DNA from: Paramacrobiotus metropolitanus | Lineage: Eukaryota > Tardigrada > Eutardigrada > Parachela > Macrobiotidae | NCBI RefSeq assembly: GCF_019649055.1 | Contig: NW_026570242.1 | Span: 806,001 to 870,000 of the forward strand | Reading direction: 5' to 3' | DNA: 64,000 nucleotides | In this document: in pieces, positions 700-36,660 of the stretch | Numbering within the stretch: the stretch's first letter is position 1 | How the letters are laid out: every line of letters begins with the position of its first letter | The notes under the pieces: model-generated | Databases searched by the model: none | What the model saw: only the letters and a program-made list of their open reading frames with translations | What the model was told of the DNA's origin: nothing | Program-made: the position numbers and the translations under genes

Positions 700-2303
700 A
701 TGGCACGCACTGGAATATTGCTGGTGGCAATAGGTAAAGCAGAACTGTTTGTTACACTAAAGTAAAATTTGAAATTAAGATTTTCTTTCAAATGTACAGC
801 GCTGTCGTCATTTGCGTTTTCTTTGGCCGATGGACGCTTCCTTCAGCCCAAAAGCCAGCAAACGTCATTTCTATGCACCGTCGCATTTGCTGGTCAATCA
901 CCGGCATGTTGTACTTGGGCACCCTACACCGCGCTGACCGATACCATTGGCTCAACAGAATGGGAAAAGCCCATTGGGATGAGCAACTTCCAGCCGTCCA
1001 CGCATCCTGAGCAGCTAGCTCATGACTCTTGTAAATTCAACTCACCTGTACCTGATTCACGTCTTTAACAGGACGATTTAATATTTCGCTTTGCAGCCAT
1101 TAAAACACTGTTTTCTGTCTGCGACAATCAAGCCGGTTCATCTAGCCGTTCGGCCACATACCAAAGCAAGGGTGGTTTGTATGGCAATGGTCAACCAATT
1201 CGGCTGCAGTTTTGGTACAAGATTGCCGAAGAAATACTTAATGCTAAGTTGGAAATTTCTACCGTCACCAAGCCAAGAGGACTTAACAGAATATGGAGCA
1301 GCTCGACACTCCAAAGCCAGTGGGCCTTGGGCGAAGTTATTATCCAAGAAAGTGAACTTTACCAAATCAGATTTACGGCAAGGCACACCTGCATCACCTC
1401 CATTTGGCTTTCAGGCATTACTGCTCATAAAAGTAAGGCTATCGCTAATCTAAGTTGTCATCGGTCTTTATTGGTCAAATCAAACTTAAGGCAAAGTAAA
1501 GAAGGAAATACAAAAATTACAACAACAAAATTTCATTCAATTTATCCAGCCCTTCCATCGTGCCCAGCACAGACGCCGCATTACCCCGTTGAATTTCTAT
1601 CGACAAACGCTATCGACTATCGATTTGCCATTACGGTTATTAACGGGTTTAATTGTAGCCGTTACTTTTATTACTCGTATTTAATTTACGTATGCTTTTG
1701 TATTAGTGGAACGCAGCAATAACGATGACTGCCTGCCTACAACTACCACCACCACGACCACTACAACAACGCCGACAACTACCACTACCACAACAACGAC
1801 AACCACGGAAAAAGTGTATCCTCCACCTACTCTGACCATGCGCGTGAAGCGCTACAGATATGACAGCAAATGTGATCCATGGATTCACGCTAATGCCGGT
1901 AGATGTGATCCACGATTCGATATTGTGTACACGTGGATTGGCACCGATGGCCGAACAATGTACGGAAAGTCAATGAATCTACCTACCTTTAGTCAGAACG
2001 TGGGCTTGACATACACAATACTGCTATTTTTTTAGGACGCATAAGCAGTACTACAACGCCGGTGACGATTTGATTGAGGTCAATTTCCCAGAGTCCGTGA
2101 AACATGCGGCTCTGGTGCAAAAAGGTAGTGCGGCTCGCGTAAGAATCGTGGCAGAAGACGAAGACGATGTTGGAAGTAACGACCATATTGGAACCTTTGA
2201 CTTTTTATATATTGTGCCAAATGAGCCGGAACCGCCAAGAACCGAAACACGACAGTCTAACGGAGCGGAAATGTCCGTAGAATACACAGCGGTCTTCCAG
2301 TAA
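700..2303 (+). CDS. secreted MAM-domain protein with Thr-rich linker (5 exons)
   Basis: Probable exons are 700-733, 800-1030, 1097-1432, 1707-1968 and 2036-2303. They sum to 1,131 bp (376 aa), and the phases match at every junction. The first exon plus the start of the second encode a signal peptide (MARTGILLVAIALSSFAFS). Residues about 35-200 read as a MAM domain: a Cys-Thr-Trp motif near residue 50, later the core IRLQFWYK, then a segment beginning WALGEV that runs to QIRF. MAM domains mediate extracellular adhesion or recognition. A near-pure threonine run (about residues 211-232), likely O-glycosylated, leads into a C-terminal domain I do not recognise, with paired cysteines (SKCDPWIHANAGRCDP) and an acidic strand ending DHIGTFDF. 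The last intron uses a weak donor (GTCAAT); the nearby GTGGGC donor gives an immediate stop. The polyadenylation signal is at 2333. Confidence 0.72.
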
Positions 2304-2332
2304 TGTACCACCAGCATCAGCATAAATGTTTT

Positions 2333-2338
2333 AATAAA
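2333..2338 (+). terminator. polyadenylation signal AATAAA
   Basis: AATAAA lies 30 bp after the stop codon of the MAM-domain gene and about 40 bp before the convergent end of the adenylate-kinase-like gene. The two transcripts therefore end very close together. Confidence 0.6.
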
Positions 2339-2378
2339 ATATAATCTGTTGCTTCAATGCAGACTAATGGCTACCTGA

Positions 2379-3150
2379 TTACTGTATCTGGGGCACCAGA
2401 GTTCTTTGAATCGTGTCGTATACCTGTTCAATTTCTCTGTTGGCATCAACCTAAAATTTCCACTGTTCAGTAACAGGACCACAAATCAATGGCGCAGCAC
2501 TGGTGGCGTAGCTCTACTTATGGTTAGACTTAGCGTTACCCTGATAATAAACTGTTGCATTTGCATGTCCTTTATCATCGGCGTCGTGTATTTTACGTAA
2601 TACTGTATCCGTTTGCAAACAGTCTCCGCTTTATCTTCCGGACGAGTTCCGTGCTTGCTCCGAGTGGCCGTTCTGTCTGCCAGCACTACGTCGGGGCACT
2701 CCAAAATTATCACTACCGAGGCTTTTCCAAACTACAAACAAAGTTTCGCGAAAAGCTGTTGGTGCATGCAAGTGGTCGCCCATCAAACGTACGTCTGCTT
2801 CGAAGTAGGACCGCTGCTCAGGATCTCTGGGGTATCCATGAATAATATAAGGCTGTTTTCGGGATAAATGCTTGAAAATGTTCTCCCGAAGCACCTCATG
2901 GACATCGCGCTGCAATACCGGAACTTATTAGCAGCCATATTCTAACGTAAATGGTAAAGATGCTCAAAATTACTGAATCGCACAGATATCCTATATCGAC
3001 GTTCAATTTACAACGTTTTCCGCGAGGTGTATCATGTAGAGCTTCTTCCCGCATCAGTTGTCCCATAGAAAGATGTGTGTATCCAAGACGTTCTGCAATC
3101 ATATCGCAAATCACGGCTTTCCCTGCCGACGGTCCTCCTATAACAGACAT
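2379..3150 (-). CDS. short adenylate-kinase-like (NMP kinase) protein, 4 exons
   Basis: Exons are 3150-2974, 2909-2793, 2731-2540 and 2450-2379: 558 bp, 185 aa, in phase throughout, with introns of 61-89 bp. Landmarks run in the order of an AK1-type kinase. They are a P-loop (VIGGPSAGK), a THLSMGQLMR NMP-binding stretch, YIIHGYPRDPEQ (family IDGYPRD.EQ), VVIILECPDVVLADR, a short-lid Arg/Asp segment, and a C-terminal IIRVDANREIEQVYDTIQ. The length fits the short, lid-less class (about 190 aa). Such enzymes move phosphate between ATP and AMP or CMP. Several key positions differ: GKGT is GKAV, STGD.LR is SMGQ.MR, and the Asp before GYPR is His. Activity may be altered. The start is the Met just ahead of the P-loop; an upstream exon cannot be excluded. 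Confidence 0.8.
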
Positions 3151-4082
3151 AAATTGCAATAAATAGCATTTTTGAAAGGCACGATAGTTGAAACTTTGAT
3201 AGTCGCCAGCATTTTACCTAAAACAAGTACTATCGGCAATCCAGACCTCTGAATAGCGATCGACTCCGACGTCCGAGTCTGTATGCAAAGTAATGATGGC
3301 GTCCTTAGCTTATGGTTAGTAATTCGGATATCATCTGATGTGATTACGTAATACCTGGTTCCACGTTCTGAACGACATTTTAGCGGTAATCTCGTAACTG
3401 CAGCAAAATTAAGAAAAAATCAGCCCTACCGCACACCGGCAACACGCTAGGTTTCGCTTTTAGCACCATTGAAGCAAATTTCCCGTTTTCTTAGCCATTA
3501 ACTTTAAAAGTAAGTACAATTCACAGGAGTCAGGATAAGTCATATTTTACGATTAATCTTGTTATCGGTACAGTATTAATTTACATTTTTAATAGAAATT
3601 GGACTTTATTTCTCAATATGTATTTTCTCAATATGTTTCATTTTTAATAGATACTTACTGCACTATGTGATACGTTCAATATTAAAAGAACACGGTCAAC
3701 ACACTGGTAATCCTACGCAGTGTACCAGTTTGTGTCAAATAATAAAACGAATATACAGGTTCCCGAAAAATAAAGAATCAAACTTTTTTTTGAACAGGAA
3801 TCAATTTCCGCGCAAAAAAACTTGAATATGTACGACAAAATAAAAGCTTGTATTGTACGAAAATCGCTGGTTGTTGCAGGTTTATTTTCACTCACTCAGT
3901 ACTTTACTTGAAAATTGAAATTAAGTAGGTATCTATAGATGCGCTTATAACTGCGAAAAACAGTCATCCAAATCTATTATAATTATATGTTGATGACAGG
4001 AATATTATACACTTTTTTGGCGACAGTACAGGAAGTGAGGAAGTTAGCGACTGCGCATTTCTCAGCCCTTTATGCACTGCAT
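3151..4082. other. intergenic stretch, nothing recognised
   Basis: AT-rich spacer between the start of the adenylate-kinase-like gene and the 3' end of the EF-hand gene. No coding exon with usable splice sites was seen on either strand. Confidence 0.5.
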
Positions 4083-7000
4083 TCACGCAATCTCGGCTGT
4101 CTCAAATGGTTGCATAGTTTTCATAAGATTCAAGCTATCGGACAATGGAAAAAACGATGGCAGAGATTTATAGCGTTTAAACCATTTGCTGTGGACATTA
4201 CTGGGAACAGGCCCGTCACAAGCTTTGTGAAGCAGCTCTTCGAAGTGCGCAAGAGCCGCCTCGCGGCTTTCCACTCGGTGATCAACATCCTCAGTCCGCA
4301 AGAGGACCTTCCTCAAATTATCTTCGGTTGACGACAATGGAAGCTTCCTTTTCCTTATCGATTTAATCAGCTGCCTAAAGTCTGTCCACATACCTCGGCG
4401 GATGCTACCTTGATAGCAGTCTTGAATCTTTTTCATTCGAATTTGCTGCACCAACCGGCGTTCCACGGTTTCGACAGACTGAAACTGGCTGATTTGCATC
4501 TCTCGTGCTTGCTTTTTGATCTGTTTTGTCAAGCCTCTCATCAAATGGTCGCGCTTTTCACTAAGGAATGACTCCAGTAGAAAGGTCACTTGAGCAAACA
4601 TCCTCTCGATCCGGCGCTCCGGGGTCTTGGATAGCGCCATAGCTGCTTCGTCGGCTTGTTTGCGTAGGACCTCTGCCGAGTCCACAAACAATAACTCCGG
4701 AGATAAACTAAGTTTTTCCCGCTCATTGTCCTCGGTAACTTGCGGAACAGGTGTAGTTGTCTGGTAGGAAGCAACCGATTTCGACACGCCTTTTTCATCT
4801 TGAAATTTGATAGGCCTAACCGAGCTTGCGCCAGAGGGAGTAATTTCTGGAGTATTACTTCCGTATGCATACGCACTAACAGCAGATACCAGAAGTTGGT
4901 TATTGTTGGCGGACTGAGACTGCGAACCCGAAAGACCAGAAAATCTGCTGCGTATCTTACTCGGTGCGAATGGAAAACTAGCAGTGCTTGAATGCTGTGA
5001 TGCGGCAGAAGCACTGTTAGACGGTATGGAAAACGTACTAGTGCTCTTCTGACCGACTGCGGCTGGTGCACTGCGGCAAGAAATAGTTGACAGGCTGGTT
5101 TTTCGAAAATTTCTCGGGTCGTTCTCCTCCAATACCAGCTCGCTTTTCAACCGCCTAGACCGAGCCAAAATTGCTTTGGTCCGGGAATCCATAAAACAGT
5201 AATCTTTTTTAAATAGCCCTGTTGTTTGTGTCAATAAAGTAGCTCGGAGTTCCTTGCGGTCTAGCGATTGTTCGTTTAGCTTCTCCGCTCCAGCTGTCGG
5301 CGGCGCAATAATTTCCTTCCGCGTCTCTTTCATAATAGCCGTTGCAGCTTGCACCAGTTCTCGCGTTGAATCATTTCTCCGTGATGGATCGATAGCCGCG
5401 AGTAATCGTTCCTCATCCTGCTTGGCGGCTTGTTTTAACATTTTGTACGCTCGGAGCTGTAGCGCCTCCAGGACATCTGTCGGAGTTGGATCAACAAGCC
5501 AAACGTTATGGATTTCACGGAAACGTCGTCTCAAAAACTTCTCGTAATCCGTTCGATCACCTTGGGCGGTAGGTGCTACACTTGGTTTCTTCCTGGGTTT
5601 TCCGTGATCCAGGATATTGGCTTCCGAATGCAGATGAGGTGATTTTGCGATCTCCTGCAGCATTTGCTGTGCGTTTTTATTGAGCCGGCGAATGTCTTGG
5701 TGGTTCACCAGCGTATTAGCCGCTGCAAGTACGTGCTGGGTGTGGTCTGGTTGAGGGGAGAAATGAACGCTGGGAACTGTCGCCTGAGCCGTATCCTGGT
5801 TCTTTTCATGTGTGCCAGGTGATTGGGAGCGGTACTTCGCTAACTCGTCTTCTAGCTGACGCAGTTCCAGGGCTTGCATTTGTAGTCGACTTGTTTCTTG
5901 CGGAGAAAACCGTAGCGCAATCATGGCCGGCGGTGGCGTCATTGGTGTCGCACTTTTGGCAAAATGGGCGGTTGAGATATCATTGGTGAGCGCATACGGA
6001 GTCGGCAGGTGCAGTTCTGCGTCATTTTCAGAAAAGCGATTGACCTTTGAGGGGGTGTATGGCGAGTGTCGCGAAGGCATCCCAAGAGGGTTCCCATCGT
6101 CCCTCAAAGAGAATCGTTTCACAGCGGCATCGGTAGAGATTTTACGACCAGTTGGAGCGTGTTTAGCCAATCGCTCCATTCGCTCGTCAGACGTCAGCAC
6201 TTCAGGCTCAGGTGGCGGCTGCTCCAGTTCAATCTCGTTGACCAGCGCATACTGCGCAGTGCGGTAATATCCAAACACGCGCAGCAATTTTTTGATATCC
6301 TGTAACGAATGCTCTATGAAAATATTAATTTTGCAGTCCTTTGCGCAAAATCGTACCAGCCAACGGCTCTGCATAAATAGTTTCTCCAGTTTCTGCTGAA
6401 TCCGCCAGGCGAGAATCAGCCGCTCAGGAAAAACGGCATGCCAGTTGCATGTTATGCCCGGGATATCGCACACATCTGTTCCGATTTCCTTTGGCGGCAT
6501 AAGTGGCTGCGGATTACGTTTGCGTACATACTGACGAATCGCGTTGAACGGTTCTTTTTTCTGTGCCGTCTTATCCTTAATAAAGCCTGTCTTTGTTCTT
6601 CTGCCTGATTCCGATGTGAACGATGCAAAGGAATGCACGGGCTCAGATTTATCTGACAAACCTACGAAACGGGACTGCAACATCCTGTGGATACTAAACA
6701 ACACGTGATGGCTATACATAAGTAATTGTTGGTACCTTCTACTTCCAAACAGTAACGTAGTCGAACTCTGCGCTCTTTGATCCAAGCGCGCATTCCTTTG
6801 CGAAGCTCCTTAAAGGTCACTGCCTCTCGCGTTGCTTCGTCAACTTCGACCATCATGTCCAATATGGTTGTCTCGGTTACTTTATCCACATCCATCTAAA
6901 AAACTACAGGCGAGTATTATTCAGCTTTTCCAGAAATGCAATATGGAAAATATGGCGGTCACATGATACGTAACACGCAGTACGTCGGACAAAATAACAA

Positions 7001-14133: not shown

Positions 14134-17100
14134 TCAACTGACGTTTGGCGAAAATCCCAGATTGATCACCGCTATATTGGTATCTTTTGCTCGTGTTGCC
14201 TCTTGGTTGAGCTGCTCGGCGCTCCTTGATGAAATCATTGTAAGAGCAAGGGAGTTAGGTGTAGATTTTGATGGCTGAGTTTTATAACCACCCCCGTAAA
14301 AGATTGTCTTCTGGTACAATGGTAAATCTGTACCATAATCCGCATTTCCCTTTCTAAAAATTTGGGAAGTCGACCGTTTGTCGCTAAGTTTTCGCAGCCG
14401 GAAATACTGTGCTTTGTACTCTTCGATGTCTCGAATCAATCTCTCATTCAGGAGTTTTTCTTCATTCCACATGGACGTGTACATGTTGACATCCGCTGTT
14501 AGACCCTAAATTAAAAATAATGGATTTTTTAACGAAAAGGATCTGTAGGCATTATGGCTGCTTTGCATGTAAATAACTGAGGCAAAGAACTTTACCCGCA
14601 TCTGTTTGGTTTTGTCTTGCAAGGCCTTTTGGAGATGTATGACCTTTTCGTAAATCTCCTGACTGGGTAGGCGCGCCATGATTGATTTCAGTTCGATGTA
14701 CAGATTTTCTTTCTCTTGCAGCATGCGTTCTATCTGTATAACTTCGTCCGTCTTCTTGATCAGGCGACGCTGGTACGTTTGTATCTTGAGTATCAGCTCA
14801 TATGTGCTGGGATCGTTTCCTTGCAACGCTCTCCAGCGATGGGCATTAGCGGGAATTCGTAGCTCTTCTTCCAAAGTTTTACAGTGGTTCTTCTCCGACA
14901 GGAGATCCTTATTCAGGCGATAAATTTCCGCACGCATTTCTTCCATGGCTGACGAATTCCTGGACATTATACCCTTTTCGCGGTTAAGCCTCTGCGAAAT
15001 GAATATCACGTTAATATTTAACATCAGAGTTCAAGTAGACGATTCAGTTTCTTGAACATATTTATTTTACCTGTAATTCCAGCTTAAGCACGCGTATATC
15101 TTCCAACCGTGCTCTGTAAGCTCCTTCACCCTTCTCCATGATAGATTCCAGGATCTTTATCTTTTCCGACAGCAAAATTAGTTCATCATTCCTGCGCACC
15201 ACTTGCGTACCGAGAATATCCCGTTCTCGCGTAATACGCTGAACTTCTTTTAACATTTGCTCTTTCTCTTGGTCGGCATGCTTAATAATCCGCACTAATT
15301 TAACCTGCTCAGATTCGACATCACCCAGTTTGTTCTCAATATCCTGGGTCTTCTTCTTCAGCAGTGTCAACTCTGACCGAAGTGTATTCCGCTCCGTCTC
15401 CAGACGCTGCCGTTCCAGATGCTCTTTAGCAATAGCACCTTCCACTCTGGAGATTTGATCCCGTAGTTGTTCCATCTGATCTGCCATAATTTTGATTCGT
15501 CGCTTGTACTTTTCAATCTCTTCATTGGCATCGCTGACGTTCTTGCTGAGAATGTTGCGCTCGGTGCGGATGGTTTCTAGTTGATTACGCATGGCCTGTG
15601 TCTTCGCATCGGTTTCTTCGTTTTGCCGCTTCAGATCGGCAATCTTGCTGTCTTTGTCGTTGACATTCTTTGTCATGTCTAGAATCTCTTCTTTCAATGC
15701 ATTTATCGTACCTTGAATAAATTAACAGAATGTGCTCGCAAAGTATGTTGAAACTTGAGTCATTTTAAAATTTTTGCACTTGACTAACCGGCATTTTTTA
15801 CTCTCTCCTTTTCCAGATTCCCCAAAATTCTCCTGGATTTCTGAGCTTCTTGCTCGTATCTTTGTATCTCCAGCTCAAGCGCGTGTTTTTCCATTTTGGC
15901 TGTGAGAATTTGCGCCTCCAGCTTGTCGGCATCCGAACTGTGACGCTCCAGATTTCTCCTAATAGTGTCACGTTCTCTTAACAGATCTTCCATTGCTTTT
16001 CGATCTGCTATGCCTTGCAGCCGTTGTGTTTCAAGTCGCTTTTCCAGCTCAATCGCTTGCTCTTTAAGAATCTCCCGGTCCGACTCCAGCTGCGATTTAA
16101 CCTGGTCTAAGGTCTGTACTTTTCGCAGAATGGCCTCATTGGCTTTCGTGAGCTTCCCATTTTCGACATTCATTCGGTGCACCTCCGATTCATGCAAATC
16201 CTGCTCCTGCTTAATCTTGACGTTTTCTTTACGCAGTTCTTCCGCGGTATTAACTTGTGTGTCGTAGTCGGTCTGCAGCTTCTTTTGTTTGTTCTCCATG
16301 GCTCCCAAATCGGCTTTCATGCGGTCAACTTCCACCTGATAGGCCAACTTACATTTATCTACTAGAGGAGTAAGTAGAAGGCGCATTTTATTAACATAAC
16401 ATAATCGTCTGGCGAAGCCATGAACTTCTAGTGCAGTTGTTTAAATAAAACGTAACCCTTAGTTCGCGTAGCTGTGTCCTTTGTTGTGCCATAGTTGTCT
16501 CCGCCCTGGCCAGATCATCCGATAGGTTTGTTTCCTCCTTTTTGGCATCGACGACTTCCTGTTTCGCCTGCCTGAGCTCCCTTTCCAGCTTTTCTCGCCG
16601 TCTTTCTTCTCGACTTCTTTCGTCTTTCTTCTCGGCTAACTGCTCCACAAGCTAAAAGCCAAGGCGGTATTAAGTGCGCAACACGATTAGCAAAAATCCA
16701 GTGATTACTGTCATTTGATGTATATAACAGTGCATAACACCTACCAGACACCTCTCAGCGTTGGCGTCCTGAAAATTTCTTTCAATTTCGCCAATTTTGT
16801 TCTTTGTTTCCACCAGCTCCTGCTGGGCTTGCTCCAGTCTGACAATGTACTCATCGCGCTCTTGCGCCAGCTTGTCCTTGGTTCGCAGCAACTCCTGTGC
16901 ACTGAAATGTATGACGTTCATCCCGCAAAGGAAATTACTCCACCTCTCAGCTTACCTGTGTTCTTGACCGGTTGCAAAATTGGCATTCTTCTCTACCAAG
17001 CGGGTCAGATTACCGATTTCCATTTTGAGTGTGGTTATGGTCTCTCCGGCTTTGTCCTCCCGTTCATGTGCTTCATCGAGCATTTTCCAAGCTTTCTCTA

Positions 17101-20011: not shown

Positions 20012-23000
20012 TCACAACCGCTCGATTGGTAATTCAGCAAATGAAAGGTAGTCACTGTATATGGTACAAAAGTTAATGTCATCCCCATAATCTACGAAAT
20101 CCTGCTCATTCAGTCGTTTCAGACAACTGCTCAGATCGGTCGCTTTACTCAACAAAGACTGAATTCCCATGTGTTCCAACTCAGTCCGAGTAGGTAAATC
20201 GCAAGGATGTGGCTTCGGCTGTCGTACACCTCGCAAGGGATCAACCTGGCACGGACGTCGGTTTATGAATAAGCTGTCCGAACCATCGGATGAAAACGGT
20301 TTTCTGTCTGTATTCCTAGGAATACCTTCCACCGCCGACGATGACTTGCAAAGACGAACAGCACTAGCGATTCGCTGGGATAACGTGCGGCTTGGCAGTG
20401 AATCACAGTATGTACTGTTGGTATCACTGGCGTCTGCTGGCGAGGAATCTTTCACCGTTGTCAAACTGGATCTGCTGTGTTCCGCGTCGGCATTTGGAAG
20501 GAATATTTGTCCTTGGACTTGCTCGTTGACATCACTGGTTGTGTTAACACCGGGTTTAACACCAGTGTTTGGGCTAACCCCGGTGCTAATCGTGGTTGGA
20601 ACGTTCGGGAAGACACCGACATTTCCCTGGTTTGGAACTGCGGTCGGAGGGTCCTGTGCGTTTTCGCCAGCGGGTGTTGTCAACCCACTGGTATCTACAA
20701 TACAGTCTAAATTATCTATCCACTGGTATCTGGTATCTATTCTGACCTACGACGCTCCAACACAGCGAAGCGAACTCATAATTTACCAGTCGATTTCGAG
20801 GTGACTATGGGCTTTGTCGGGCGTAAGTCATCTGTACTGGTTGCTCGAGCTGCCCTTCGCGAAACAGTTCCATCGTCCAGCTCCGACGATTTCACGAAAT
20901 GCACATTCCGATCTATTGGTTCTGCAATATCCCAAAAATACACAGATTATATCTTTGCACTGCCCAACCGATGCAAAACTGGGGAATGCAAAGGCTTCCG
21001 CACTTTTCGTTCATTTTTGTCACTTGCGCACCTTGATTTTTGTGAACCGCATCATGCCGCTGAGTGTGCCGCAGCTGACGCTTTAGCTCTTCGACGTCGA
21101 AATGCAGCTTAGCCAGTTGGTCATCTTTCATGAACTGTGCTTCCGAAAACTTGACATCCTCGTTGTTTCTTACGTTTCGCGAATCTAGCGGTTCATGAAA
21201 GATATTATTTATTCCGGGTACTGCTTGCCACAGGCATCTGAAGCGGTGGCTCTCTCGAGGAAAAAAATGCCTACCGCCCTTTTCATCAAAATGATGCCGT
21301 GATTCATCTGTTCCGTTTCGGACATCCTGGAGATCTCTCCTTGTTTGCAAATGTTTATCGCTTTTAAAAGGAGTTTGTTCAAAATCCGACCGGCCACGGT
21401 TGTTCAGCGCTTCTCTGCGGTCTAAACAAGAAGCAATGACAGTGCACACTGATGAGTAATAGTAAATCGTGTGAAAGGCTCACCATGAGCTTCCCGTATT
21501 TGCTTTAATCTTTCTTCTAAACTAAATCGCGGTGTCCCTAAAGAAGCATCGATTCCCCATTTAAATTCCGAAGCACACCATGCACAAGAAAACTCAGACC
21601 TGATGCTCGGTACTGTGACCGTTGCAATTCGTTTATCATTTCGTTGAGTTGACAAATTTCTTCTTCCTGCTTTTGAATAGTTTGTTCCAAGTTTTTGATA
21701 CGTATTTCCGCATTCTGAGGGATTTCGAGGGTCGTTTGTCTTTTTTCGCGTTCTTCTGAAAATGATATTATGTCGTGTCGCTCATGGTCAGTATTTGCTA
21801 CCTATACATCCAGAAGACAAAGCTGGAAATCCTATGCCTGACTAGGCATACCATTTGGTGCACTTCCATTCAGCTTATAAGTGTTGTATCCACTTTGTGT
21901 TGTTGTTGGGTCACCATATGGCCTGCTGCTGATTCTAAGGGTTTTAATAGTTTCTCGAAGCTGGATCAGCGCTTGGTTCTGCCCCGCTACCGCAACAACC
22001 AGTTCGGATAGCTGATCCTGAATCTTTAGTGCTATACGTTCCGCCCGATCCTCCTGTCGATTTGGAATACTGGTTGCCGCTTGAAGAAACCAACCGTCAG
22101 TGAATAAAAGCCGCTAGTCATCGAAGCAGCGCGCACAGCGAATGTTGTTATTATGCAGCCGAGGTTATAACAACTGCGAGTTACCAATATCTTCGATTTT
22201 TCTCGACCCGGTTTTTCTCGACCCGGTAGTCGAGCTTTTAACGCAGTCTTGTATCGCCTTTAGAATTTTTAAGATCTCATTCCGGTCTTCTCGCTAAATA
22301 TAGAAAATAATGCAGTGTGAATAACATAGCCACAGTAAGATTTATGTACAGTATATCGTTTCTTACCGGTACCAACGATACTGAACTGCTGGACGAAGGC
22401 CTAGGTTTCTTGCTAATGGGTATCTTCCTGATGCTTCGGTTCTAGATATTATTCATATTCAAACACACTGCTGACTCTCATGACAAGTATTTGCCGACCA
22501 GTTTTACACAGTAACACGGTTTACCTTGTTACTTCCCGATAATCGTGTAGGGCGTTTGGTATATAGCTTCGCAGCTTGTCTCTCTAACAGTTTCCGTTTC
22601 TCGGTTTCTCGCTCCAGCTTGTCTTGAAACTCTGTTTGCAGCTGGGTAATTTTATCATGTAGATTCTCGTTTCTTTGCTTAATACGCTCATTTTCCGCTC
22701 TGCATACGGCATATTTCTTTAAACAAGCTTGAAGACGATCTTCGGACATAACTGGTAATGGCTTCAGTTTATCTGCGCTCGCTTCGCTTTCAGTTTGGAC
22801 GGTGTCTAGTTTGTTAATTAGCGATGCAAATTTTTCTTTCAACTCTGAATTCTCCGCTTGGCACGCGCTTAATCTGTTCAAACAATCATCGAATCCAGCT
22901 GGTTGTTTCAGGTCCGATGTTTTCTTGGGTTGACCTTTCAGTTCTGCACGGGATAAAGGGACAGATTTTTGATAAAAGGTTTTTAACGCTGGCCTTAGCA

Positions 23001-26000
23001 TTTCCACGAGCTTGTCCAAACTCTCCATCCTAACTGATTTGGACTGCTTTATAGCATTCAGAATCTGCATCAAAATCTTTCTTTGTTTGCGAACTTCACT
23101 GGATGCTGAGACAGGATTGCTGTCTCGAAACAAAGCCTTGTTTGTAATCCCACGCATTCGCACCGGATTTCTTCCTTTGTAAAGTGCCGAGTTCGGTTGA
23201 AGTCTATCTGGTTTGGTTTTCGCCGTGGTGTAAAGTTCCTTGAGCTCGTCTAGTCGAGATAGAAGTCGCTCGATTCCCTCTTGGCTTTTTCTGTCGATCA
23301 TGATGCGCTCTTCATGTGCACGATTTGCCGATTTATCTACTAGACCCCTGAGTTCTGCTCCAATGGTGTTCAGTTTTCTCACAACTTGATTCGCCTGAAA
23401 TTTGAATGGAGACTGCGCATTGCTAGATTTTCTATGGGCCTTGTTAAACTGGCGAAGAGCGTTACATGTCGGACAATGGATCGAATTTCCGATAGATCGT
23501 CCAGCGTCGACGACAGGCTTATGTTGACGATGGAGTCTCTTGGAGCGATTTGGCTTACGGTTTTCTGTATTCGGAATACGAGACGGGCGCCCACGAATGG
23601 TTGCTAACAGTAGCTCTTCCATTTTTTGCAGTTGGAAGGGAAGTTTTTTACAATGACTACAGTCAACATGCACCGGCTGCTCAAATCTTTTGTCCAGCCT
23701 TCGGAGCTTCCCAATGATTTTCTCACAGTCGCGGCTATTTGATGACGCTGCTCCTTTCATCTTTTTCTCGATGCTTTGCAATCGCTGAGCCATTTTCTGA
23801 CAAGCTGCGCATTCGGATTTGACCGGTTTGGCTTTTGAACTGCCTGTTTCTAGCTTCCGAATTAACTCCTTGCGCAACTTTCGAAATTCATGTCCCAAAG
23901 CGGTACCCGCTTCAGTATTAGGTGGTTGTATTGATGAAGACCGCTGGCGCTCACGGGGTAACGATTGTTCGTTGGGTGTTGTCGCGTGCGATCGATCCTG
24001 TCTTGGACTGTAGTCGGCAGACACAGAACGACGTGGGTTTACAATTCTTTCGCCTTTATGCTCCTGCAAACTAAACTTAAGCAAGTCGAAAATAGGATCT
24101 ACTGTTTTCTCAGTACATACTTTTGCAGAGTTCGGATGTAGCTTGGCTGTCTGCTTCCGTAACAAGAGAAGTTCCTCGAACAGCTTCTGCTGAATTTTAT
24201 TTAGCGAAAACAGCGCTTCCTCCACGCCTGCCATCGAGGCATTACTCTCTGTTTGGTCGAGCGGCATATTCGCCGTGCCTAGTTTCGCTGTCAAATCTCT
24301 TATAGCATTTTTTAAACTTCGAAACTCTCTCTGCATCTGCCAAAAAATGAGTATATCAGTCGACAGAAAATGCGTCCGTCTACTCGCTTACCGATTCTGT
24401 ACCCGCTTGAAACCGCAGTTGGTTTTCATACACTTGACTAACTGAATCCACGGTTCGTAGGTGTTCTTGTTTATTAGCCCTTTTTTCCCCTTTTTGCGGT
24501 GATTTCAGCAAATCCAGTGCCTTTTCCATTAGGAGTTCTGCCTTAGTACAAAGCGCTTCAAGTGAAGCTACAACTTCCGCTTGGCGATCAAGATTATCCG
24601 GTATTTGTGAAAGGTGTCTTTTACGAGTAACTATCGAAGTACTTCGTCTAACCGGAAATATTGTAGCAGACTTCGTTAACTTCCGTGAAACAGAATCAGC
24701 ATCCCCAGGTGACGAGAATCCCGTCTGCAGTAAATTTTGTAGTTGGTTCAAGTACCGCTGGAAAGTTTCTAAGAGCGAATTCAAATTGTGACTGGTGTCG
24801 GTTGTCGACGGGATTGTCGGCATGTATTCATCTTGACTGTTTCTTGCAGGGTTGTGCTGATCTTTCGTGTTTCTGCTTAGCTCAGGATTCCGATCTGATG
24901 GGTTCTTGGAGCGTTTGTGCGAACCATGTGCCGGCTCACCCAAGCTTTCCTCGAAATCATCCACACCATTTGATCCACGTTCCGGTTCCACGATTCTTCT
25001 GGAGTGCGTGTTTATGCGCTCATAATCTGGGGATGAGCGATTGCTTCTCTGAAACATGGCACCCGAATCTGGCGCTGTTTGTGATCGGGAATTTCCAGCT
25101 TTCCTGTCCGAGTGCTGATCCACATCATCGCTGCGTTCATCAGCCACATTGGTATCTCCATATGACTGGAAGGATTTCGGTTTCGGCGTTTGCATTATCC
25201 GGTCATGATCCGAACTTGCATATTCAGTTTCGCTGTGGCTTTTACTCGCATCTCCTTGGAGAAGCTGAACACCTTGCACTGACTGCTTGCGCACACTGCG
25301 AGCACCATCCGATGCTGCAACAGAACTACTTGCTTGCGTAGGCTTTTCTTTGCTTTTTATGCTACTTCGCGAGGCTGATCGGTCATCTAAAACGTGACCT
25401 TCGGCTGCGTTATCGTGTACCGATACTGTTGACAAGCTTGCTGGATATTCCGTCACACTTTCCGGACTTTCCGGTCGCTCAAATGAAGCGTAGGTATTTA
25501 GTCTGACGGACGAATCTGACCGTTCGCTGGTTATTTGCACATCAGATTTTGCGTCGGCTTCTTCGACGGTGTGCGCGGGTTTCGTAGGTGTCATATCTGT
25601 CTCTTCCACGCTAGAATACGACTCATGTGGTAAAGGGAACATATTCGTTTCAGACACATCTCTCGTTAGCGCCGCATCTGCCGAATGTCGTCGTCGTGAT
25701 CGCCTGCGATTGCGATATCTCTTTCCTCTTCGCTCTTCCGGATTATTTTCAGTTTCATAATAATCAGGATCATTGCAAATGCGACACTTCTTGAGAACTT
25801 CTGGTGGTTGATTGCGCGGTATGGATTCTGGTTCCGCTCGTTCTGTTTGTGAAGACCGATCCACGTGCGAAGGGGAATTTTTTGATATCGATTGATGAGA
25901 CGCTTTGTATACAGGACTGGGATGCGAATGGCCATTTCCTTTCGTCGGTCTTGAGAATATGGATTCCTTTGATGAATGGTCGCTGTGAAGTGGAAGCAAA

Positions 26001-27683
26001 TTCAAAATATGCTTTTGTCGTACAAAGCGCATTTTGGACAACGAAGATTCTCACCTGTATGCGCTGCTGTAGCTGATCTGCCCACTGAACGAAGCGGCAT
26101 TGCTAAGAGGATTATCTGAACTCCGCCATTCCCGGCTTGACGAGTTTGCAGTATTTCTCGTGTTTCTATGTATAAACTTGTTAGCACTAGACGTTAACCG
26201 GTAAACGAGTACTTATCATTCTAGAAAATAACAACTAATACTACTTTACTGGTTCTACTCTTTTCAACCATTTTTTAAACAGAACATTCGATACGTTATA
26301 CAGGAGCTACCGATGCATTACCCATTCGACAACTGGTGATGATTTGGTGGTAATTCTTCTTGATTCCAGTGGTGCGATGTAGGCCCCCCGTGTTTGTTTT
26401 GACCATTTGTGGCCCGCGTGGTAGGATGGAAACGGCAAGAATTATCCTGCAGTGTACGAAGTAGAAATGGGAATTGGAATGTTTCACGTTTTCTTCCATC
26501 TTGATATAACAAACAAAAATTTCAGTTGACCTGGGTAACTCCTTTCAGGCGCGTTTTTGACCGACTATCTTGACCTTTTATCCTTTCATCGCCGGATGGT
26601 GTAACATAGCGCTTGTTCTGTTCTTCGCATAATGCGCACCTGTGGTACAGTTTCATTCGGAACAATTTATTGCGCTTTGAATATAAACAGAAATGTTACC
26701 TGCTCGTTTCTTTTGATGACTCGAGCTTAGAAGCACGCTGATGATAGGTCTATAACACAAAACTCGTTTACAAACACATTTGGTTGGCTTTGCAGCTGCA
26801 TCGCTTCTAACGTGAGCTGAAAGTATTAAATTTTAATATTTGTACTCGTATGCAGTACCTACGGCAGCTGCTTGGTTCTCCAGGAAATGAAGAAGTCGAT
26901 GGAGATGGCCATTTACATTGGTGACGCTGTTGCGCAAATTCTTGAGCCCTGACGTGAACCTGCAACAAAACGCGCTAAAAGCGATACCGGTAGACAAGCA
27001 TTTACGGATTCGTAAAAAATGTTACACATCATTCGTTTCCGTAAATCCTTTGCTCGCTCCTTTTTTCACTTGTTCGTATGCCGTTTTAACTTGGTCGATT
27101 TCGTTAACAATACCACTGCAAAAAGGGAACATAGGCAGCAGCCACTGCAGAGGAAGGAATTTTCGTAGCATTATTTGGAAGAAAGTTTATATTAGGAAAG
27201 GTTGCTTATACTTGGTATCATCGCAGACTTCTTTAATATGTTTGGCGATACGCTCTTTGCCGGGCGAACCAGTGGCCTAAAATACAAGCATGCGGCTCAA
27301 AACGATTTTTACACTAAGCACAAATGATGAAAGTGCAGAATCCTGCACCAGTGTATCCTAAGAAGCGTACAAACGATCCCTTCCGCAGAGAAGCTCCCGA
27401 TCCCTTCCCTTTCCTGGATGAAGCATTTATTTTTTCACCAGCATCTCCCACCACCAATGCGAAGCGATAATCTCCTGATCCCCCAAGTTCCTCCAGTTCC
27501 CTCTGGGAAAAGACATTTTCCAGGCCATAGATCTCAAAGTCTCCCCTGAAAATAAATTAATCGTTCCCAGCCACATACTGTAAGATATTTTGTTTTTTTC
27601 ACGTAAATTTCGATCACATTTACGGCTTAAGGGTCAAGGTCATACCTGTCAGGAACAAACGAGGACCCCGATCGGCTTCCCAT
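20012..27683 (-). CDS. very large multi-exon coiled-coil protein, uncharacterised
   Basis: A chain of in-phase exons runs from an ATG at 27683 to a stop at 20012. The N-terminus starts MGSRSGSSFVPDRGDFEI in two exons (27.5-27.7 kb). It continues through ATGSPGKERIAKHIKEVCDD (27.2 kb) and IDQVKTAYEQVKKGASKG (27.05 kb) to LKNLRNSVTNVNGHLHRLL (26.9 kb). Two long exons follow: one ending at about 24396 (Ser/Arg/Glu-rich, disordered, with a CRICNDPDYY motif) and one at 24336-22516 (about 600 residues of basic coiled coil with repeated CxxC-like pairs, such as CAACQK and CSHCKK). The tail is made of small exons at 22.4, 22.25, 22.0, 21.7, 21.5 and 21.2 kb, then a Pro/Asn/Thr-rich end. Some N-terminal junctions near 26.5-26.8 kb are ambiguous, and two adjacent genes cannot be excluded. 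The shape suggests a centrosomal or basal-body scaffold; that is inference. Confidence 0.6.
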
Positions 27684-28433: not shown

Positions 28434-28520
28434 TAAAATGTAATTTAACGAGCGAAGACAACGTTGGAAATATTACAGTAATATTTCCAACGTTGTCTTC
28501 GCTCGTTAAATTACATTTTA
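28434..28520. repeat. perfect 42-bp inverted repeat with 3-bp spacer
   Basis: The arms 28434-28475 and 28479-28520 are exact reverse complements, separated by CAG. The arm contains AACGAGCGAAGACAACGTTG. Perfect identity means it is very young, kept by gene conversion, or an artefact of amplification or assembly. Confidence 0.9.
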
Positions 28521-28523
28521 AAA

Positions 28524-28785
28524 ATTAACGATTTAATTTATTTTAATTTGTTTAATTTGTTTAATTTAAAATTAAATAAAAAATAAATTAAATAATTAAA
28601 TAATTATTATTAATATTAATTAAATTAAATAATATTAATAAATAAATTAATTAATTAATTAATTAATAAATTAATTAATTAATTAATTAAATAATTATTA
28701 TTAATATTAATTAAATTAAATAATATTAATTAATAAATTAATTAATAATTAATCGTTAAATTAAACAAATTAAATCGTTAAATTA
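28524..28785. repeat. AT-only imperfect palindrome
   Basis: About 260 bp made almost entirely of A and T (TTAATTAA-type runs). The flanks mirror each other: a left flank with ATTTAATTTGTTTAATTT-like sequence answers a right flank with AAATTAAACAAATTAAAT. It sits exactly between two perfect palindromes. Confidence 0.75.
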
Positions 28786-28786
28786 C

Positions 28787-29006
28787 ATGAGTAATCGAGG
28801 CAGTTTGCAGAATATAAACAGCAGCAGGTTGGAGGCTATGATCTAATCAGCTTACGTTAGTTCTTTCAAAGAGTAATATTATTACTCTTTGAAAGTTCTT
28901 TCAAAGAGTAATAATATTACTCTTTGAAAGAACTAACGTAAGCTGATTAGATCATAGCCTCCAACCTGCTGCTGTTTATATTCTGCAAACTGCCTCGATT
29001 ACTCAT
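28787..29006. repeat. perfect long palindrome, 109-bp arms, 2-bp centre
   Basis: The arms 28787-28895 and 28898-29006 are reverse complements with a TT centre. Each arm itself carries a smaller palindrome (TTCTTTCAAAGAGTAATA and its complement), so the middle is a palindrome of palindromes. No open frame, transposase or target duplication is apparent. Confidence 0.9.
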
Positions 29007-29142: not shown

Positions 29143-32100
29143 ATGTCTCTTTCGGATAAGGCTTCCAGAGCGAGCGAAAAGAGCAATTTAACATGGACTC
29201 GCACTGAACCTCTTTTCCAGCTCAGTCCAAATTCACCATCAGACACATCTTTCGGTGGAAAAAATGAAGTATCCGCCTTTGAATCGGATTTTATCGAAAG
29301 TATTTCGGATCGTTTACAACGGGTCTATGGCTTGCCATATGGAAAAGTCACTAAAAAAGTGTATGAACTGGTATCTAAAAAACTGATATAAATTCAAAGA
29401 TAGCCACTAATTATGGTACATATACCTACGATCCATGAATCACTCCTAGAGTAGCTTCTAAGCTTCCTACTTGGAATAGGGCATCACTGGCATAAAGAGC
29501 CAGAAATGTAATTTCCGATCTCATTTCTTTGACTGTTTATTAATTTCATGCCGTGAATTGCAGATTTTGCGAAAACAATATGAAAAGGTTATCAGCATTC
29601 TCAACGAAATCTGTTGCTTTGATGACCGGACATTTTCGGTCAGCATTTTCTTGTAATTTTGCATCTAACTGTGTCCAAATAATTGTATTTCTTCCCAAAA
29701 CTAGGCTGGAAAGTTTTGCGCACTATTAGGATTCTGCTATTATCAGACGAAAAACTACCGAAGTGCCAGCGAATGCTATGGGCGCTTGTGGAACAACGAC
29801 CAGCAGAATCCCAGTCACGGACTTTGGCTGGCACACTGCTATGTTCTTTGCGATCGATTCCAGGAAGCATTACATGTTTTGGATTCAATTACCAGTGACA
29901 ATCTACTGGCCGAGATAAGAGTGCTGCGAGCCGCAATCTTCGTAAAATTACAACAGCTAGATGACGCAACTGTAGGTTAAGGCCAAAGTTGTAGATCTCA
30001 TAAGAAGTATTTACAATTTTATCAATGGTCTTTCTGATTTACTCTAGGATTTATTTAATGAGTACGGAGAAGAAAAGTCAAACGACTTCAACTTTGGCAT
30101 TTTGTTGTATAATAAACAAAAATTCCATCAAGCGCGCGTGGTTTTTGATAATGTGGAGCTGACTCAAGGGTCAACAGCCGACTGCCAGTATGCACAAGCG
30201 TTATGCTCTTTCAAACTACAGGATTATGCTACCGCGCAGGAGTTATGTTCCGAACTGCGCGAAGCCCTTGACGTGCCGCATGCACCTTTAGAAGTGTCAT
30301 CCAATCGTCTCATTTGTTCAAACCAGGAAAGCTCAATGCCGGCGAAATTCTGTGCAGGCATCGCAACACTGCTTTCGGGATGTTACCTGCAAGTTAATCA
30401 GCGTATGCAGATTTTACGAATTACGACAATAATGCAAGTACGATGTCCTGATTACGTATTGTAATCCACTGTTTGCAGGGCGTTCCGCCAGTTCATATTT
30501 AATATCCATATCCACTAACGGAGGATCCAGTGAAGCAGAATTCTATTGCAAAGCATCGCAAACATATATAGCAGCTGCATCTGGTGACAGCGACTTTCAT
30601 ACGCTTGAAGCTCTGGTGCAATCAGAAAACCATGCCGGATGTGCTGTCCATCGTAACCTGCTGCTGTTGTATTTGGAAAACAACAAAAGAGTGGAAGCCA
30701 GAAATTTGATTGAAAGTTTCGGTGACCAGTTACGGTGCGAGTTTGATCAAGAGGTAAGTAGAATCCAGAATGCAAGGGGACTCGACCCAGTGCACATTTT
30801 TGACAATGTTTGTAGTACGAATGGCCAATCGTTCAAGCAGTTCTCTTGGGTCTGGAGAATCCGTTAGCGTCTTCGTCGGTTTCGCTGGATATGCAGACAA
30901 GCATCGCTAAAGATATCGCTTATTATCAAGAAGAGCTCCGAAATCTCCAGTCGATGCAGCAGCAAGACGGCGACTCACCGAGCGACACTGGGAAATACGA
31001 AAAAAAGCTACAAAAAGCCGAACAAGCGTAAGGACGCAAAACTGCAGCAATCAAACAAATAGACGGCAATTTTATCTGCATTTACATCTGCAGGCTTCGC
31101 ACCATTCAATTGTACATCGCAAAGTTATACTACGACCACAAAAATTATTCCCAAGCTATCCACGTTTTACCAAGGGATACCAATGTGGACAATATCGACA
31201 CAACAACGGCCATGGCACATTGTTTGTTTATGGATGGACGCTACGAAGATGCTGTTGTTATATATGACAGCTTGATCGCCCATTTCCGCAACGCCTATTT
31301 TACACTAATTAGCGTATGTAATTATCATACTTTTAAATATATTAGCAATAACAGCAGTTAGACCATATGCATATACAGTACATTTTCGGGAACTTTGCAG
31401 TAACAGACATCACAAGAAGTTTTTATTTCTAGACGCCTGTGGACATTGTTTCCCATTACTGTGCCTCACAACTCTTCAGCATAGAAGATGTCGCAAAAAT
31501 TAAAGAGATCATTGGGGAAATCATTCGCTCGGAGAAGGTTAATTTCGAGGATATGGAGTCGGAGTATCGGGAAATTGCTGCTGCAAGAAGTCACCTGATT
31601 GCCACGTGTCTGAATCTGGCGTGAGTTTTAAAAGCAAGCGCACAATTATACGCAAATCGTTATCTGATAATGCTTCTTTTAGCGTGACCTTTCTGGAAAA
31701 TGGCAACTACGGCGAGGCTTTACAAAAGGCTGAAGAGGTGCTGCGACTGCAGCCATGGCATAAGGATTTCACTGTCTGGGACATGTTAAAGAAAGTGATT
31801 GTGCTAATCGCAAGAAACGTAATATCAGAAAGTTCCAGAGGAGACGGACTTATTTGGAACGCGATTGTTAGCCATTTATATGCATTGGAAGGTAAGCAAC
31901 TTCTTAACCTGAACTTAATCAGCAGCATACGCAATACTTACAATTGTCAACCTTTTCAACTTTTTCGTTTCAACTTTCAAATTATCTTTCGAATTTGTGT
32001 GCTTCGTTAAATTGGTACTTATATTTAGTTAGTACTGCGAGAAAAACAAAAGCATACCAAAACTGATTTCTGGAACAAAATTGCCGCTTTATTTAATTCA

Positions 32101-32857: not shown

Positions 32858-33480
32858 TTAAGGGATTTGGCCCGGTACATAGCACCAAATTCGTGTACAT
32901 CCACGGGAACCTTCGCTGTCGCGCACTCCCAAATACTTTTTTGCATTGCTTTATGGTACGTAAAGAATTGTATACGTAGTTGTGAAATCCGTTTGCGCAA
33001 CATCCGGTTGCGGATTATGAGGTAACAAAATTCCAAAAGTTTAATGTTCAGGTGTAAAGTCATTATGGACCGATCCTTTCAAATTTGCGTAAATGCACAT
33101 AACCATGAGATTGTTTGGTGGAACCAGACTTCTAGGATTTTTTTAGATTTTAAAATGAATTTTAAAATTTTTGAAATTCATTTTAAAATCTAAAAAAATC
33201 CTAGAAGTCTTCTGTACCAATCTTCAAAATGGGATCGAATCTTTTTTTGCATTTAAACTTTTGGAATTTTGTTACCCTCATAACTCCGCAACCGGATGTT
33301 GCGCGCGCAAACGGATTTCACAACTACGTATACAATTCTTTTGGCTACAAAATACCATAAAGCAATGCAAAAAAGTGTTTGGGAGTGCGCGACAGCGAAA
33401 GGTCCCGCCAATGTACACGAAATTTAGTGCTATGTACTGGGCCAAATCCCTTAAAGGACTTAAAGACTTGAATGATGCGA
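32858..33480. repeat. imperfect foldback element, about 200-bp arms
   Basis: The left arm, about 32858-33045, reappears as its reverse complement at about 33253-33465 with scattered differences and small indels. The shared core includes CATCCGGTTGCGGA and AATCCGTTTGCGC. An inner 85-bp hairpin (33126-33210) with arms of about 36 bp sits in the loop. Neither arm carries a transposase. This looks like a non-autonomous foldback transposon or MITE; no target duplication was identified. Confidence 0.7.
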
Positions 33481-33816: not shown

Positions 33817-33964
33817 GGCCTGCCCGTCGGTGAGACGCCGCTGGATCCCAGGATACCAATAATAAGCGCTGGGTAATAGAGATGATGCGCTGTTGGGGAT
33901 CTTCTTTTCCAGTGTCGTATGGTGCCATTCGTGGATCCAGCGGCGTCTCACCGACGGACAGGCC
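33817..33964. repeat. 32-bp inverted repeat around an 84-bp loop
   Basis: 33817-33848 and 33933-33964 are reverse complements with one mismatch; the core is GGTGAGACGCCGCTGGATCC. It is GC-richer than its surroundings. It could form a stem-loop in DNA or RNA, or mark the ends of a small mobile element. Confidence 0.75.
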
Positions 33965-35989: not shown

Positions 35990-36660
35990 TGGCCGAACCC
36001 ACAATGCGGCGATTCGCTGCCGCGCAAATTAGATCTGTGCTTGGGTGAGGGCGGTGCCAAAAATGCATACTCGTAAGAGCCTTACGCGTATGTATGTAAC
36101 TCCACCCCCTAGCATGCATACATACACGAAACTGATCGAACTGCCAGTGGATCTCGAAATTCAAACGCTCGTCTTTTCGTTTATTTCAACAGAACTTCCA
36201 AATCGATATATCAAAGATAGAGTAATTTTCAAACTTTTGGTATGCAGGAGTGGAAATCTATGGTAATGAAGAAAGTTATGGCTGTTTTAGTTTCTCATAG
36301 ACTTAGCATAGGATGCAAGCAACGCCTCCTCACACGGGCCTATGCTTTGTTTACGAGAAACCAAAACAGCCATAACTTTCTTGATTTGCCATAGATTTCC
36401 ACTTGCTATATACCAAAAGTTTGAAAATTAATTCTCTATCTTTTGATATATCGATTGGGAAGTTCTGTTGAGAGGCAAACGAAAGAAGCGTGCTGCAAGT
36501 TTTGGGGATTGACTGGCAGTCAGGTCGGCTACTTATGTGTTTATGAGCGAGCTGGTCACATCTACACGCGTGCCGCACACCAGCTCGTTTTAAGCCATAC
36601 GCACAAACCAATTTCGACGGCCGGAAGTCTTACTTATATAGACGGGTGCTAACTTATGTG
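35990..36660. repeat. imperfect foldback element, second family
   Basis: 36181-36296 and 36356-36474 are inverted copies at roughly 90% identity around a 59-bp loop. The shared core includes CAAACTTTTGGTAT and GATATATC. Weaker inverted similarity continues outward to about 35990 and 36660. The loop holds no gene. The arms differ in sequence from those of the 33-kb foldback. Confidence 0.7.

Follow-up and report, generated by a model that had tools for sequence, protein, structure and literature searches.

The window (the whole 64,000-nucleotide stretch of Paramacrobiotus metropolitanus DNA that was analysed) holds three palindromes stacked end to end at 28434-29006, in the space between two divergent genes, as the preliminary description of this DNA had reported. 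The outer two are perfect and are here called P1 and P3; the one between them is AT-rich and imperfect and is referred to as the middle element. The features of the locus and of its surroundings, in window coordinates, are the following.

22504-26050, minus strand: long open reading frames of the divergent gene, the putative coiled-coil gene of the preliminary description; no Pfam match
28434-28476, plus strand: left arm of P1, 43 nt, perfect; probably the original, running into the left flank
28478-28520, minus strand: right arm of P1, the exact inverted copy, 43 nt
28503-28516, plus strand: 14-mer TCGTTAAATTACAT in P1
about 28522-28784, no strand: AT-rich quasi-palindrome (the middle element), older
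28570-28783, plus strand: tandem duplication inside the AT-rich element, 91-bp unit, 2.4 copies, 87% matches
28787-28895, minus strand: left arm of P3, perfect over 109 nt and probably the inverted copy
28863-28895, no strand: nested palindrome in the left arm of P3, arm 16, gap 1
28898-29006, plus strand: right arm of P3, 109 nt; probably the original, running into the right flank
28898-28930, no strand: mirror of the nested palindrome, in the right arm of P3
29143-29391, plus strand: nearest downstream open reading frame, 82 aa, without matches in Pfam or PDB; outside the palindromes
29705-30461, plus strand: TPR exons of the neighbouring gene, IFT70-like by weak matches

The arms of P1 (28434-28520) are 100% identical about a centre that consists of a single A at 28477, so the perfection noted earlier stands, while the arm length of 42 bp given with it has to be changed to 43 nt. 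P3 (28787-29006) is just as it was first described, with 109-nt arms that are 100% identical, a 2-nt centre and an internal construction from smaller palindromes. A further palindrome lies within it at 28894-28934 (arm 20, gap 1), and one 16-mer alternates in orientation along P3, on the plus strand at 28863 and 28898 and on the minus strand at 28880 and 28915. Both palindromes have abrupt edges, since just 10 of 30 positions pair outside P1 and likewise 10 of 30 outside P3. The left arm of P1 merges into ordinary left flank and the right arm of P3 into ordinary right flank, and the inner copies of both face the AT-rich element. The 14-mer TCGTTAAATTACAT is found again at 28775-28788, where it spans the junction between the AT-rich element and P3, and its reverse complement lies at 28438-28451; this common 14-mer ties P1 to the right end of the AT-rich element.

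The middle element had been described as an AT-only imperfect palindrome of about 260 bp. It is indeed an imperfect palindrome, but the uninterrupted A/T run extends only over 28560-28753 (194 nt), and some G and C is mixed into the wider AT-rich segment, its outer arms (28522-28548 and 28758-28784) included; these arms are 85% complementary. The element matches its own reverse complement over 224 bp at 79%. Its best ungapped inverted score (29.5) was compared with 200 dinucleotide shuffles for each of three cuts, the maxima of which were 22.0, 25.0 and 23.5. Because the observed score tops all shuffles, the middle element is more palindromic than its composition explains; its palindromicity is far less striking than that of P1 and P3.

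The naming of the downstream neighbour as IFT70 is plausible, with TPR exons that match it (E 0.0022 and 0.025), and at the same time weak, as IFT56 scored slightly better in the first search (E 0.00098). Elsewhere in the window, an exon of the ciliary protein CFAP58 lies at 15065-15721 on the minus strand (E 6e-42).

A search for other copies of the arms was carried out in the whole genome assembly (169,799,020 bases in 533 contigs; 169.8 Mb), and no second P1 or P3 was found. The 851-bp region around the palindromes gave, besides itself and its inverted arms, only weak matches to AT-rich sequence; P3 alone, with E values up to 10, matched itself only; and a 29-mer taken from an arm of P1, searched with as many as 3 mismatches allowed, was found only in the two P1 arms. 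A transposon family was thus rejected as the source of P1 and P3. Simple repeats and very common words are passed over in this search, which is therefore barely informative for the AT-rich part. At four other AT-rich places with a match to the middle element (L005-L008), no perfect palindrome has arms longer than 13 nt, which is a weak test as these places also lack an A/T-only run of 50. The idea that AT-rich islands are general palindrome nurseries was dropped, as nothing comparable was seen at these four places.

The background of palindromes was estimated in 25 stretches of 10 kb (250 kb), of which 20 were taken at a fixed offset in contigs C1-C20 and 5 were picked from a random list of 60. 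Six perfect palindromes with arms of at least 15 nt and a gap of at most 8 (low-complexity arms dropped) were found, compared to none in all 20 shuffles of the 250 kb, and shorter arms are mildly in excess (16 with arm 9, against a mean of 5.1 in the shuffles). Because arms of 15 nt or more did not appear in any of the shuffles, chance is excluded as an explanation of P1 and P3. Four of the sampled palindromes have arms of at least 18 nt and a gap of at most 3, namely those in L017 (arm 40, gap 0), L013 (21 and 3), L025 (19 and 0) and L012 (18 and 1). Scaled up, this corresponds to about 2,717 in the genome (95% Poisson interval 740-6,956), a rough figure that comes from a small and incompletely random sample. 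No second copy of the L017, L013 and L025 palindromes was found in the genome searches. Clean edges are not universal, because the palindrome in L013 continues imperfectly past its perfect arms (91% over 56 bp). At L025:505-560 the left flank of the 19-nt palindrome has an extra direct copy of the inner arm, which suggests serial turns. In all 25 stretches, the ones in which these four palindromes lie among them, A/T-only runs stay below 50. In humans, the longest arm given in a survey of perfect inverted repeats is 140, and a palindrome catalogue is described as allowing up to 4 mismatches, with the very long palindromes being mostly AT repeats. Since the criteria of that catalogue differ from ours, there is no like-for-like comparison of densities, and we do not claim that the palindrome density of this genome is exceptional among animals.

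The palindrome in L012 (L012:1552-1588, 18-nt arms) lies within a dispersed repeat that occurs at 15 other places among the matches listed, and its relatives provide an empty site. The left, inverted arm is absent from all 15 aligned relatives, in which the right arm and the immediate flanks align (the right arm with one mismatch in L042; further out on the left, L042 and L052 are divergent). L041 has a diagnostic flank in common with L012, as judged by eye, and is without the inverted arm. The simplest history is therefore an insertion in L012; loss of the arm in the relatives, instead of gain in L012, is less likely. What was inserted is the neighbouring 18 nt in reverse complement, or 19 nt if one counts the G found just before them in the relatives, and L012 also has four extra bases (a CGCC duplication) close on the right of the palindrome. 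As read from the aligned copies, the empty site appears to show birth of a palindrome by inverted copying of adjacent DNA. The pattern fits the prediction of the four-point template-switch model, and stem-loop synthesis by Pol theta could give the same pattern.

Hairpins of a different kind are also present. An inverted-repeat scan of 314 kb (the window and the 250 kb) listed 12, of which 9 are imperfect, and the three of these that were checked for copies are all multicopy. The hairpin at L013:2150-2740, with arms 92% alike, gave at least 86 matching pieces when 40 of 99 candidates were scored, and that at L034:4570-4925, with arms 84% alike, at least 80 from 40 of 255; each is present at 40 or more places, the query included. 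The third, at 33040-33300 of the window, is part of a very abundant repeat (40 of 917 candidates scored, at least 138 matching pieces) and contains a 42-nt hairpin at 98% (33126-33210). The window has, in addition, a GC-rich inverted repeat at 33817-33964 (arms of 32 nt at 97%, spacer of 84 nt) and an imperfect long hairpin at 36186-36471 (30-nt arms at 97%, 48-nt arms at 88%). This genome therefore has two classes side by side, hairpin elements that are dispersed and have diverged arms, and palindromes that are perfect and lack a second copy. P1 and P3 fall in the latter, single-copy class.

The multicopy hairpins raise the question of whether P1 and P3 are themselves a mobile element of the foldback or MITE type, present once or founding a new family. 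With no further copy found in 169.8 Mb, centres of 1-2 nt and flanks in which a target-site duplication is absent by eye, we consider this highly improbable. An artefact of sequencing or assembly, in which fold-back chimeric reads were incorporated or polishing copied one arm over the other, is unlikely too, although there are reasons to consider it. Palindromic reads are described as common among the mitochondrial reads of MDA-amplified tardigrade nanopore libraries, the Illumina reads, at a mean of about 138 nt (as obtained by division of the published totals), are shorter than P3 (220 bp), and short-read polishing might homogenise near-identical arms. The assembly described in PMC8277472, which is probably the genome analysed here, after trimming, was made from about 3000 animals with the nanopore Rapid kit, Canu, nanopolish and Pilon (nanopore 45x, Illumina 62x), and the DNA preparation is given, in the part of that source available, without genome amplification. 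This would make the amplification artefact, one of the options offered by the preliminary description, unlikely. Each single arm is also shorter than one Illumina read, and similar shorter palindromes (37-80 bp), which single reads can span, occur elsewhere in the genome.

If the palindromes are real, they could be old and have been kept perfect through gene conversion from arm to arm, as has been proposed for palindromes in nematomorph mitochondrial genomes (PMC6649704). We give this little credence, as the neighbouring AT-rich palindrome has only about 79-85% identity and so has not been kept perfect, and as the birth of a new palindrome is seen at L012. A functional hairpin, which would be a source of siRNA or microRNA or would act in cis on the divergent genes as a regulatory cruciform, may coexist with an origin by template switching. 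The distance of 136 bp from the end of P3 to the ATG at 29143 would suit such a role, transcripts would fold into long perfect duplexes, and microRNA hairpins reportedly arise by template switching (PMC8794818). A known RNA or microRNA precursor was rejected, with none of the 29 Rfam matches listed reaching the gathering score of its family; we read the microRNA matches among them as reflecting the perfect stems. In the 250 kb and in the window beyond 28434-29006, the arms have no exact match that reaches 15 nt; a small-RNA target in either was likewise rejected, with a CTG-rich 14-mer in the IFT70-like exon as the one exact match (E 0.02). Nothing that speaks for a role in replication, in chromatin or as a promoter came to light. 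Function as the explanation of the palindromes is hence very unlikely, and a regulatory role is possible but unsupported.

We are fairly confident that P1 and P3 are inverted duplications, made next to an older AT-rich quasi-palindrome when the template was switched locally or when repair synthesis snapped back, and that the locus is a mutational scar and not an element. Good indirect evidence makes it most likely that P1 and P3 are two young inverted duplications; the kind of mutation is a known one, and their length and stacking are unusual. Both have the perfect arms, the abrupt edges and the adjacent source DNA by which template switches are recognised, and their lengths (43 and 109 nt) are below the great-ape maximum of 128. 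We infer that they were born in the same way as the L012 palindrome, and from their layout we also infer the polarity of the arms, the order of events and the role of a fragile spot. The older AT-rich quasi-palindrome may have served as this fragile spot, as suggested by adjacency at the one locus, and because L005-L008 show nothing comparable the idea is kept for the locus of P1 and P3 alone. Synthesis from each side of the AT-rich element would have folded back on itself, either because the template was switched at a replication fork, within or between strands, or because end joining involved snap-back synthesis. On the left 43 nt and on the right 109 nt of adjoining DNA would then have been copied in reverse complement, followed by rejoining. 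P3 would have required at least two successive turns, the first a 16-nt fold-back and the second one of 109 nt that copied across it. A single sequence such as this fits a template switch at a fork and snap-back end joining equally well.

Long perfect palindromes are regarded as short-lived in most genomes, and the preliminary description had taken their survival to imply very recent birth or one of several other causes. Birth in situ is favoured by the perfect arms, the abrupt edges, the single copy and the precedent at L012. The qualifier "very recent" goes beyond this, as up to about 2% of divergence between the arms is allowed: there are no differences at 152 arm positions of P1 and P3 together, which gives a 95% upper bound of 1.95%. 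Animal mutation rates are a few per billion per generation, and with these numbers an age of up to millions of generations is still allowed.

In the literature covered, which is incomplete, on tardigrade palindromes, template switching and Paramacrobiotus inverted repeats, we did not find these palindromes reported; gene-scale palindromes have been counted in two other tardigrades, at a different scale. Young palindromes with empty sites make the birth length, the junctions and the decay directly measurable, here in an animal known to survive DNA breaks, and they caution against taking every palindrome in a tardigrade assembly for an amplification artefact. One may speculate, doubtful as the idea is, that desiccation-tolerant tardigrades continuously make long perfect palindromes (arms of tens to more than 100 nt, perhaps thousands of them in a genome) when desiccation breaks are mended by snap-back repair, that they tolerate these unusually well, and that some of the palindromes may seed the hairpin families of this genome.

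P1 and P3 can be compared with several known systems. With the foldback and MITE hairpins, of which this genome has multicopy examples, they share the palindromic form, but they lack dispersed copies and, in flanks inspected by eye, target-site duplications. The nematomorph mitochondrial palindromes (PMC6649704) are also long perfect inverted repeats, of up to 284 bp, but are described as mitochondrial and coding, while P1 and P3 are nuclear and outside recognised exons. Like the palindromic AT-rich repeats (PATRRs), the middle element is an imperfect, AT-rich palindrome that measures a few hundred bp and scores above chance against shuffles; it differs in being flanked by perfect palindromes with G and C. 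Insertions made by Pol theta are perhaps usually shorter than the arms of P1 and P3. Stem-loop (snap-back) synthesis by this enzyme, whose part here is putative, is described as giving templated insertions in the form of inverted repeats (PMC11292364), and the likeness lies in the copying of a strand's own end as an inverted repeat. A further parallel in form is with four-point template switches, which are reported to create new hairpins (PMC8794818) with a copied length of median 12 and maximum 128 in great apes (PMC7954356). P3, with 109 nt, is near that maximum, and 109 and 43 nt are both far above the median; moreover, two copies here flank an older quasi-palindrome and P3 has several turns. 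What these switches share with P1 and P3 is the exact inverted copy of adjacent DNA, the perfect stems and the abrupt edges (PMC7954356, PMC8794818), and with L012 alone also the empty site in relatives.
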